Positions 60,938-63,952 of a stretch of DNA of 64,000 nt are shown here, in pieces. Each line of letters begins with the position of its first letter. Position 1 is the first letter of the stretch. A program made the translations under genes and the position numbers. The notes below the pieces were generated by a model. It saw only the letters and a program-made list of their open reading frames with translations, made no database searches and was not told the DNA's origin. This stretch comes from Streptomyces aquilus (GTDB lineage: Bacteria > Actinomycetota > Actinomycetes > Streptomycetales > Streptomycetaceae): the NCBI RefSeq assembly GCF_003955715.1, contig NZ_CP034463.1, positions 8,928,001 through 8,992,000 of the forward strand, given 5' to 3'.

Positions 60938-61966
60938 TCAGCCCGCCTTGCGCCCCCGCATCGGCTCCGTGCCCGCGCCGGCTCCCTGCTGGAGCCCCTT
61001 CAGGAACTCCTCCAGCACCTCGGTCGCCGTGTGGTCCGGGCGCCAGCGGAGTTCTGTGCGGGCGCGGGTGCAGTCCATCAGGGGCAGGCGCAGGACCGCG
61101 TCGAAGAGGTGCGGGGAGGCGGGCAGCAGGTGCAGGCCCCAGGCCGCGGCGATCGCCGAGCGGGCCGCGGTGCGGGGCAGGCGGACCGGGCGGGCGCCGA
61201 GCAGCTCGCCCAGCAGCTCCGCGTCCACCAGCGGCTCCGCCGCGAGGTTGAAGGCGCCTCGGGCCTCTGAGCGCAGGGCGAGCCGGTACGCCTTGGCCGC
61301 GTCGTCCGTGTGCAGGGCCTGCACCCGCAGGCCCGGGATGTCCGGCAGGAACGGCAGCAGCTCCGGGCGGACCAGCGGCCCGGGCAGGAAACGGCCGCCG
61401 AAGATGCGGCGCTGCTCGCTCGCCGACTCCCGTTTGAACAGGAACGCCGGCCGCATCCGCACCACCCGCACCTCCGGGTGGTCGCGCTCGAACGTGTCCA
61501 GGGCCCGCTCCAGATAGGCCTTCTCCCGGCAGTACGCGGCGTCCGGCCAGCCGTGCGTCGGCCACGACTCGTCCACGGCCTCGTCCTTCGGACCCGGCGA
61601 GTACGCACCGACCGACGACGTGTGCACCAGCGTCGGCACCTTGGCCGCGGCCACCGCCTCGAACACCCGGATGGACCCCAGGACGTTGGTGCGCCAGGTC
61701 GCCGCCGGATCGTGCGTCGGCTGGAACGCCCAGGCCAGATGCACCACGGCGGACGCACCGGTGAACTCCGCCGCCAGATCCGTCTCCTCGGCGGACAGGT
61801 CGACCGTGACCCAGTCCGTCTTCGGCGGCGACCACTCAGGGGCCCGACGCGCCAGCCCCACCACGGAACCGACGTCCGGATCCTCCGACAGGAGCCGCAC
61901 CACACTGGTGCCGACGTTGCCGGTGGCGCCCGTGACGACGATCCTGCTGCCCGTTGTGCTGCTCAC
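60938..61966 (-). CDS. NAD-dependent epimerase/dehydratase family protein
   Basis: An extended short-chain dehydrogenase of 342 aa: VVTGATGNVGTSVVRLL binds NAD(P), AVVHLAWAFQPTHDP and TSSVGAYSPG follow the core, and YCREKAYLE carries the catalytic Tyr-x3-Lys. The start is GTG 61966, with GAGAGGAG six bases upstream. It could be a sugar-nucleotide epimerase or a hydroxysteroid or flavonol-type reductase. It is divergent from the HTH/Tap-like operon. Confidence 0.88.
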   Translation of the reverse strand: MSSTTGSRIVVTGATGNVGTSVVRLLSEDPDVGSVVGLARRAPEWSPPKTDWVTVDLSAEETDLAAEFTGASAVVHLAWAFQPTHDPAATWRTNVLGSIRVFEAVAAAKVPTLVHTSSVGAYSPGPKDEAVDESWPTHGWPDAAYCREKAYLERALDTFERDHPEVRVVRMRPAFLFKRESASEQRRIFGGRFLPGPLVRPELLPFLPDIPGLRVQALHTDDAAKAYRLALRSEARGAFNLAAEPLVDAELLGELLGARPVRLPRTAARSAIAAAWGLHLLPASPHLFDAVLRLPLMDCTRARTELRWRPDHTATEVLEEFLKGLQQGAGAGTEPMRGRKAG

Positions 61967-62093: not shown

Positions 62094-62375
62094 GTGGGAC
62101 TGTCCTTGGGAGAACGGGTGAGGTCGTCGGTGGCCGCGTTGATGCACGCGACGGGTGAGTCACAGGCGGACGTCGCCGTCGCGCTCGGCGTGAGCCAGGC
62201 CCAGGTGAGCCGCCGCCAGTCCGGCAGCGCCGCCTGGAGCCTGGCCGACTGCGACGCGCTCGCCGCGCACTTCGGCATCGACGTCCTCGACCTCCTCGCC
62301 GGACCCACCCGGGCCTGCGAGACCCTGCCCGTACGCAAGCGCCGCGCCGGTGGCCCGAGGGCGGTGGCCCGATGA
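62094..62375 (+). CDS. small XRE-like helix-turn-helix protein
   Basis: A 93-residue DNA-binding protein: LGERVRSSVAALMHATGESQADVAVALGVSQAQVSRRQSGSAAWSLADCDALAAHFGI is an XRE-type helix-turn-helix, followed by a basic tail (VRKRRAGGPRAVAR). GTG 62094 is chosen; an in-frame ATG at 62070 lies within the inverted repeat. The stop overlaps the start of the next gene (ATGA at 62372-62375), so the two proteins are probably made together and may form a complex or share a site. Confidence 0.82.
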   Translation: MGLSLGERVRSSVAALMHATGESQADVAVALGVSQAQVSRRQSGSAAWSLADCDALAAHFGIDVLDLLAGPTRACETLPVRKRRAGGPRAVAR

Positions 62376-63952
62376 CGGACTTCGACGCGATCGACGCCCT
62401 GCTGGCCGGCGCCCGCCAGGAAGTGCCGCTGCCGCCGGTCGACGTACGGCGCGCCCTGCGCGAAGGCCTCAGCCTCTCCCGCGCCCAGGTGGCCCAGGCC
62501 CTCGGGGTGAGCCCCTCGACCGTCGGCGGCTGGGAGGCGGGGCGGGACCCGAGCGGGGAGGTGCGCGAGAAGTACGCGTACTTCCTGGAAGGTGCCCAGG
62601 CCAAGCTGGCGGACCGGTCGGAGGAGGCGGCGGCCGAGGAGGACGTGGAGCCCGCGACCGCCGAGGACGAGACGGGCGAGTCCGACGACGTCGAGTCCGA
62701 CGAGGTCGAGGCCCTCGCCGCGCCCCGGCCCTGCGTTCTGTGCGGCACGCCCGCCCACCAAGAGGTCGCCGGATTCCCGCAGCATCTCGATCCGGCCGAC
62801 TGCGGTACGACGACACCGGCGGCGCCCGCTCCGGAACCCGAGCCGGAGAAAGAGCCCGCCCAAGCCACCGAGCCCGCTCACGCCGCCAAACCTGCTTACG
62901 CCGCCAAGCCCGCCCACGCCACCAAGCCAGCCCACGCCGCCAAGCCCGTCCGCGTCGTCCCCGTAGGACGCCGTATGCAGGCCGCCTCCCAGGAACCCGA
63001 CCTCATCGCCTCCGCCGTCGCGGGCGCCCTCGCCCAGCACGGCGGGGACCTGGAGGCCGCGACCGCGGCGCTGGTGAAGAAGGCCATCCCGGACGCCATG
63101 GCGCTGCTGGACGAGACCCGCAAGGGCGGCCGGTACGACGTCGTCGCGCACCCCTGGATCCCGGACATCCTGCGCAAGCAGACCGCCCGGGGCGCCGACC
63201 GCATCTGGGAGGCCCGCCCCAAGTGGGCCCGCACCGAACTCCCCCCGGGCCTGCACGAGGTGACCGCGCTCGACATCAACGGCGCGTACCTGTCGGCGCT
63301 CAAGACCCATCTGCCGATCGGCCAGTTGGAGCACTCCACCGGCTTCGACCACGACCGCCGCCGCGCGGGCGTCCATCTGATCACCCCGCCGGCCTGGGAC
63401 CACGAGGCCGAGCTGCCGAACCCGATCGGCAACCGCGACGAGCCCGGCCCGCTCTGGGTCACCGAACCGACCCTGCGGCTGCTGCTGCGCCTGTCGGGGC
63501 CGAAGTACGGGCTGTGCGACCCGCCGGAGATCCACGAGTCGTTCACCTCGGGCGCCACCGAGGGCCTGCTGGAGAAGTTCCGGGTCGCGTTGAAGGAGGC
63601 CCGGGACCGGGCGATCGCCGAGGGCGACGACGTGACGCTGGAGTACGTGAAGGCGATGTACTCCAAGTTCGTCTCCACCATGGGGGAGTCGAACTACAAC
63701 CGGGAGCTGTACCGCCCCGACTGGATGCACCTCATCCGCTCGCAGGCCTTCGCCAACCTCTGGATGAAGGCGTTCAAGGCCCACGAGGAGGGCCTCACGG
63801 TCGTCCGCGCCATGGGCACCGACGAGCTCCATGTGATCGGTGACTGGCGGCGGGTCTTCCCGGAGGGCCGCGGGGTCTCCGAGGTGAAGGTCAAGGACAC
63901 GTACACCGTCGGCGAGGAACCCGACCCCGCGGCCGCGGGAGAGGACGACTGA
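62372..63952 (+). CDS. Tap-like protein with helix-turn-helix and B-family-polymerase-like palm motifs
   Basis: A 526-residue protein. Residues 25-75 form a helix-turn-helix (LSLSRAQVAQALGVSPSTVGGWEAG). Next come an acidic stretch, a CxxC-H-H-C cluster (C121, C124, H129, H138, C144) and five A-x-A-x-x-P hexapeptides (163-192). The C-terminal half has D301-INGAYLS, YVKAMYSKFVS (425-435) and GTD484-ELHVIG, which line up in order with motifs A, B and C of phi29-type protein-primed DNA polymerases (DVNSLYP, NSLYGKFAS, DTDSIHLTG). The overall plan also resembles the streptomycete telomere protein Tap. No exonuclease domain is seen. Activity is unproven. Confidence 0.7.
   Translation: MTDFDAIDALLAGARQEVPLPPVDVRRALREGLSLSRAQVAQALGVSPSTVGGWEAGRDPSGEVREKYAYFLEGAQAKLADRSEEAAAEEDVEPATAEDETGESDDVESDEVEALAAPRPCVLCGTPAHQEVAGFPQHLDPADCGTTTPAAPAPEPEPEKEPAQATEPAHAAKPAYAAKPAHATKPAHAAKPVRVVPVGRRMQAASQEPDLIASAVAGALAQHGGDLEAATAALVKKAIPDAMALLDETRKGGRYDVVAHPWIPDILRKQTARGADRIWEARPKWARTELPPGLHEVTALDINGAYLSALKTHLPIGQLEHSTGFDHDRRRAGVHLITPPAWDHEAELPNPIGNRDEPGPLWVTEPTLRLLLRLSGPKYGLCDPPEIHESFTSGATEGLLEKFRVALKEARDRAIAEGDDVTLEYVKAMYSKFVSTMGESNYNRELYRPDWMHLIRSQAFANLWMKAFKAHEEGLTVVRAMGTDELHVIGDWRRVFPEGRGVSEVKVKDTYTVGEEPDPAAAGEDD
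62858..62947 (+). repeat. five 18-bp coding repeats (AHAAKP linker)
   Basis: Hexapeptides AQATEP, AHAAKP, AYAAKP, AHATKP and AHAAKP are encoded in tandem (residues 163-192). They form a rigid Ala/Lys/Pro linker between the cysteine cluster and the palm-like half of the Tap-like protein. Confidence 0.88.

Follow-up and report, generated by a model that had tools for sequence, protein, structure and literature searches.

A Tap-linked protein with a predicted phi29-type polymerase fold encoded on a Streptomyces chromosome

We analysed a 64,000-nucleotide stretch of the Streptomyces aquilus chromosome (NZ_CP034463.1, positions 8,928,001 to 8,992,000 of the forward strand; hereafter the window, in whose numbering positions are given), in which a two-gene operon encodes a small XRE-type helix-turn-helix (HTH) protein and a 526-aa protein combining an HTH with a domain predicted to resemble phi29-type polymerases. 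The first open reading frame (ORF; 62094-62375, +) starts with GTG and encodes 93 aa with matches to BetR and HTH_31, and the second (62372-63952, +) starts with ATG; the two share the bases ATGA (62372-62375, +), a start-stop overlap in keeping with the translational coupling described in the initial annotation. Within the 526-aa protein, an HTH at residues 27-64 (62450-62563, +; HTH_3/PF01381, E 2.1e-8) is followed by a C121-C124-H138-C144 cluster, possibly a zinc site (62732-62803, +), by a low-confidence Ala/Lys/Pro/His repeat linker at about residues 156-197 (62837-62962, +; predicted local distance difference test (pLDDT) values under 50 at 156-189), and by the polymerase-like domain at about residues 209-515 (62996-63916, +). 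Relatives were aligned as 81 rows, comprising the window protein and the best 80 of 325 genome loci, which are hence close in the polymerase domain; each cluster residue was kept in 78-79 of the 81, bearing out the N-terminal HTH and Cys/His cluster noted earlier, and a relative of the XRE protein was present in 57 of the 80 loci (tblastn E ≤ 1e-5).

The polymerase-like domain carries D301-INGAYLS, YV-K427-AMYSKFVS and GTD484-ELHVIG, which we found exactly where the initial annotation had placed motifs A, B and C, and the order D.N..Y ... K..Y.KF ... TD never arose when the protein's residues were shuffled 20,000 times. D301 (63272-63274, +), K427 (63650-63652, +) and D484 (63821-63823, +) were each invariant (81/81), as were R287, G333, W362 and K506. 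A further alignment of 74 rows, which takes in a bridge family 22-29% identical, left R287, D301, G333, W362, K427 and D484 as its only invariant columns (74/74), so that the expected catalytic positions make up three of the six. Motif C appeared among relatives as GTD, STD, ATD or NVD. In a nine-row alignment including Tap and proteins fused to a DnaB-like helicase, the motif A and C aspartates were invariant and the motif B lysine column was variable.

In a template-free model of the 526-aa protein, phi29 polymerase ranked first in structure comparison and family B palms were matched; the model has the palm and fingers of phi29-type protein-primed family B polymerases, placing D301 on a strand and D484 at the turn of a hairpin. 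We regard a phi29-type polymerase fold as close to certain for a prediction. The initial annotation, which had proposed such a fold on a Tap-like plan, had staked its proposal on a palm and on retained aspartates: the model has the former and every row of both alignments the latter, and the invariant D301, K427 and D484 together with a sequence bridge to Tap agree with that plan. With phi29 DNA polymerase the window protein shares the predicted palm and fingers, the motif A Asp, the motif B Lys, the second Asp of motif C and a similar spacing between motifs A and B (126 residues, compared with 134 in phi29), whereas it differs in having GTD for DTD, an HTH of its own and a place on a cellular chromosome, and in lacking an exonuclease domain and detectable profile similarity. 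No proofreading exonuclease domain was recognised in the model, in which about 120 residues, partly with pLDDT below 50, separate the HTH helices, which extend to residue 89, from the polymerase match, which begins at about 209. Pfam recognised the HTH alone, neither Pfam nor PHROGs matched the C-terminal domain, NCBIfam gave weak side matches (YacG, E 0.014; Pol III subunit, E 0.75), and a search of PDB sequences returned one match (E 0.52), inside the HTH. Judged by its sequence, with DTD and a profile match both missing, the family is outside the canonical phi29-type polymerases. A phage origin was considered and dropped, as tblastn found no match in 50,697 phage records and none was confirmed among viral contigs.

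Tap patches the ends of Streptomyces chromosomes, and to our knowledge no polymerase motif had previously been found in it. The window protein shares with Tap the N-terminal HTH (49% identity over 71 aa) and the invariant R-D-G-W-K-D set, and its family, like Tap, is partnered by a gene of about 185-190 aa in most relatives examined; unlike Tap, it has 526 rather than 748 aa, a Cys/His cluster, no exonuclease-like region and no terminal-protein gene next door. The NCBIfam Tap model NF047542 matched residues 4-197 only, with 62.9 bits against a 600-bit cut-off, and by this measure the family is not a member of Tap proper. The bridge family scored 82.9 bits to the window protein and 159.8 bits to Tap (E-values in the bridge and Tap comparisons come from small home-made sequence sets and are indicative only), which supports homology of the C-terminal domain to the catalytic region of Tap through that family; a comparison of alignments A3 and A4 was set aside because both contain the same 25 bridge rows. 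Tap polymerises in vitro (PMC4513846). Non-archetypal pairs of telomere-associated and terminal proteins are described in PMC7205883 and PMC8743542, namely GtpB/GtpA of Streptomyces griseus and Tac/Tpc of SCP1; they are gene pairs of the same kind, likened here by literature description and not by sequence, and the window family may be GtpB-like.

Some observations concern Tap itself. Unlike the window protein, Tap (P0146) aligns from its residue 170 with phi29 polymerase from the latter's residue 3 onward, and may have kept an exonuclease-like domain; D183 was kept in 49 of 71 rows, with position 185 variable. Neither Tap nor Tpg was found above the curated cut-offs in the window's genome, in which a 38-aa stretch sharing 61% identity with Tap residues 495-532 (G000:C1 10152852-10152965, −; equal to L015:4853-4966) and lying about 241 kb inward of the right end is seemingly a decayed Tap remnant. 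Among the literature titles and abstract openings searched, with preprint servers and subscription journals outside the search, none named Tap a family B polymerase; we claim no priority.

A match to a small terminal-protein-like gene, the putative partner, lies downstream of the polymerase-like gene in 61 of the 80 loci, at a median gap of 10 bp (range −7 to 152). The family also matched 183 plasmid records, taken here as the best 60 of the 183 plus a spread of 60, and of ten plasmid loci with the domain that were examined closely enough to place the next gene, nine (L010, L011, L012, L020-L024 and L027) carry a gene of 187-196 aa within 114 bp downstream; in the tenth (L025) the next gene encodes 156 aa and is weakly alike. 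Within each of two groups the small proteins share 41-85% identity; between the groups identity is about 27-44%, over mostly shorter stretches. One of three tested had a weak match to the NCBIfam Tpg model (E 0.0077). At least five of these plasmid loci bear other N-terminal parts: the polymerase-like domain is fused to a DnaB-like helicase in L020, L021 and L023, all Streptomyces plasmids (PF03796 in L021 and L023), a like fusion is inferred for L024 from its 78% identity to L023, and L022 encodes a 1073-aa protein with an N-terminal part of no known kind. A Pseudonocardia protein (P0122) combines the domain with a primase-like N-terminus, and three more proteins (P0136-P0138) combine it with DUF927. 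When the best 60 plasmid rows were reduced to 42 by our own rule for near-copy removal, 19 of the 42 lay in the outer 20% of the record (8.4 expected, P 2e-4) and nine within 15 kb of an end (4.5 expected; 133 of 5,000 simulations as high).

At the remaining 19 of the 80 loci the small gene was missing from the downstream 3.4-6.0 kb. Whole-genome searches of those 19 recovered it at full length in 16 (7/8 in a first search and 9/11 in a second, in whose genomes the polymerase was not re-mapped), as fragments only in L097, and not at all in L034 and L055; the copy in L102, counted as split, is probably only about 7 kb from the polymerase, judged by coordinates from what seems to be one genome carrying two handles. 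Seven genomes in which both genes could be placed have one full polymerase each, with the small gene on another contig or, once, 1.87 Mb away, and L035 holds three small-gene copies, one beside a polymerase fragment; in four linked control genomes the two genes are side by side. The small gene was found in none of 15 same-genus genomes without a polymerase match, which are all the genomes that lacked one in a search for the polymerase; five of the 22 polymerase-bearing relatives from that search, examined alongside, yielded four full-length copies and one in pieces. In a tree of the family, adjacency of the terminal protein changed 11 times, at least seven of them forced by well-supported branches, so that the split of polymerase and small gene appears recurrent.

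The window protein belongs to a clade of eight rows (support 100/99) in which no member has an adjacent small gene. Six of its seven clade-mates encode the small gene elsewhere (eight of nine counting L035 and L036), and the idea of a clade wholly without a primer was dropped on that account. Upstream of the operon in the window is an epimerase-like ORF in the opposite direction (60938-61966), also seen in L028, L029, L030, L032 and L034. Downstream, the near end of a short-chain-dehydrogenase-like (SDR-like) ORF, likewise opposite and extending beyond the window, is 6 bases past the stop of the 526-aa gene, which fits the earlier remark that no tpg gene is next to it; no terminal-protein gene follows the 526-aa gene in this genome. 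An SDR-like neighbour of 82-98% identity occurs within about 2 kb downstream in L028-L036. L037 and L059, both outside the clade, have the small gene and then, further on, an SDR relative (83% and 79%), an arrangement which suggests that the small gene was once present at the window's site. No terminal-protein remnant was detected downstream of ten split copies (the window and L028-L036; best E 0.08, with L037 searched with the L059 protein as positive control at E 3e-107). Five clade-mates have the unlinked small gene beside one upstream stretch that they share (L147:2805-6787 and the corresponding parts of L148-L151). Genes for a Prim-Pol protein and a D5-type helicase lie within it in L147, and only scattered matches shorter than 70 bases to it were found in the window's genome. 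As for selection, the ratio of nonsynonymous to synonymous substitution rates (dN/dS, mean pairwise dN over mean pairwise dS) within the window's clade rises from 0.14 in the polymerase domain to 0.30 in the HTH and 0.43 in the linker, and the polymerase domain gave 0.09-0.17 in five clades with an adjacent small gene; constraint on the split copies thus equals that on the linked ones. The 526-aa gene is chromosomal, in a 10.39-Mb single contig; the contig terminates in inverted repeats that show no difference across the 12,000 bases read, from which the chromosome looks linear.

Collectively, we put at about two in three the probability that the 526-aa protein is a Tap-linked, phi29-type polymerase-like protein that starts DNA copying from a protein primer, encoded elsewhere in the genome in most of its closest relatives. 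From the predicted-fold match, the invariant residues, the bridge to Tap and the adjacency and co-occurrence of the small gene we infer catalysis, primer use and telomere binding. Telomere recognition would fall to the HTH and Cys/His parts, binding of metal ions and a nucleotide to the palm (D301, D484) and fingers (K427), and priming to the small terminal-protein-like protein of about 190 aa; protein priming is likely for the family. The protein leaves no space for an exonuclease domain of phi29 size or a thumb, which would accord with how little DNA Tap is reported to synthesise (13 nt). In the window's clade the pair is split, with the polymerase keeping its chromosomal neighbours and the small gene lying elsewhere in most clade-mates; in the window's own assembly the partner may be missing, too diverged for recognition, or lost.

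Several results weigh against this interpretation. The template modelling (TM) scores are modest, 0.36 for the whole model with a predicted TM-score of 0.62, and the first Asp of DTD is Gly in the window protein. Comparison by hhalign of the window family with 28 phi29-like polymerases gave 0.3%, leaving profile similarity undetectable, and the same comparison gave 2.5% for the bridge family and 0.2% for Tap. Direct alignment of the window family with Tap likewise fails (0.1%), and a family model built without the bridge row gave Tap at most 7.3 bits per stretch; since direct profile comparisons fail, the Tap link depends on the bridge family and the predicted models. In the window's single-contig genome the small gene was not detected (best E 1.69), the polymerase-like gene lies 1.40 Mb inward of the chromosome's right end, and L034, L055 and L097 also stand apart from the general pattern. 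Enrichment near plasmid ends is no rule, as mid-plasmid copies are common and record topology was unchecked for most rows, and the co-occurrence statistic (Fisher P 4.5e-7, or 1.9e-6 with the window's genome counted as a miss) is uncorrected for kinship.

Other explanations were weighed against the same evidence. The initial annotation had also offered a retired polymerase used as a regulator, that is, a polymerase fold kept as a scaffold in a DNA-binding protein whose HTH acts on promoters or telomeres; an HTH on both operon genes, the lost Asp of DTD and the failure to find a terminal-protein-like gene in the window's genome would suit it, but the complete invariance of the three motif residues, the constraint on the polymerase domain, tighter than anywhere else in the protein, and the in vitro polymerisation by Tap, which has the same residue set (PMC4513846), disfavour this option, and we consider it quite unlikely. 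That 16 of 19 genomes without an adjacent copy encode one elsewhere argues, in turn, against an active polymerase that in this lineage no longer needs a terminal protein and serves repair or defence by self-priming, DNA priming or de novo initiation. This second possibility draws on an intact domain under selection and on the window, L034 and L055 genomes, which have the polymerase and no terminal-protein-like gene that could be found, absences for which draft gaps and plasmid loss can account; a defence library gave weak HTH-type matches only, the strongest with the small XRE protein at E 0.0018, and we hold this possibility to be unlikely. Chance motifs in an ordinary XRE regulator, which would accord with public names such as 'helix-turn-helix', 'transcriptional regulator' and similar, with the lack of a Pfam match beyond the HTH and with the single PDB match in that same region, are contradicted by the 20,000 shuffles and by the phi29-first ranking of the template-free model, unless the model is wrong, and we give them almost no credence.

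A broader and rather improbable proposal is that the whole Tap superfamily, the window's orphan included, represents a branch of the phi29-type DNA polymerases residing on bacterial chromosomes, in many cases reduced to palm and fingers and freely joined to HTH, DnaB-like or primase-like parts; in the window's strain, which shows archetypal Tap as the 38-aa remnant only and in which no terminal-protein gene was found, the orphan would have become self-sufficient, starting DNA at chromosome ends without a separate protein primer. If our preferred reading of a Tap-linked, protein-primed polymerase is true, Tap and the window family would be distant kin of phi29-type polymerases, and residues for mutation are at hand in both: D438, K598 and D668 in Tap, and D301, K427 and D484 in the window protein. 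The family would also offer candidates for end patching on linear replicons that lack archetypal Tap and Tpg, a gap pointed out in PMC8743542.
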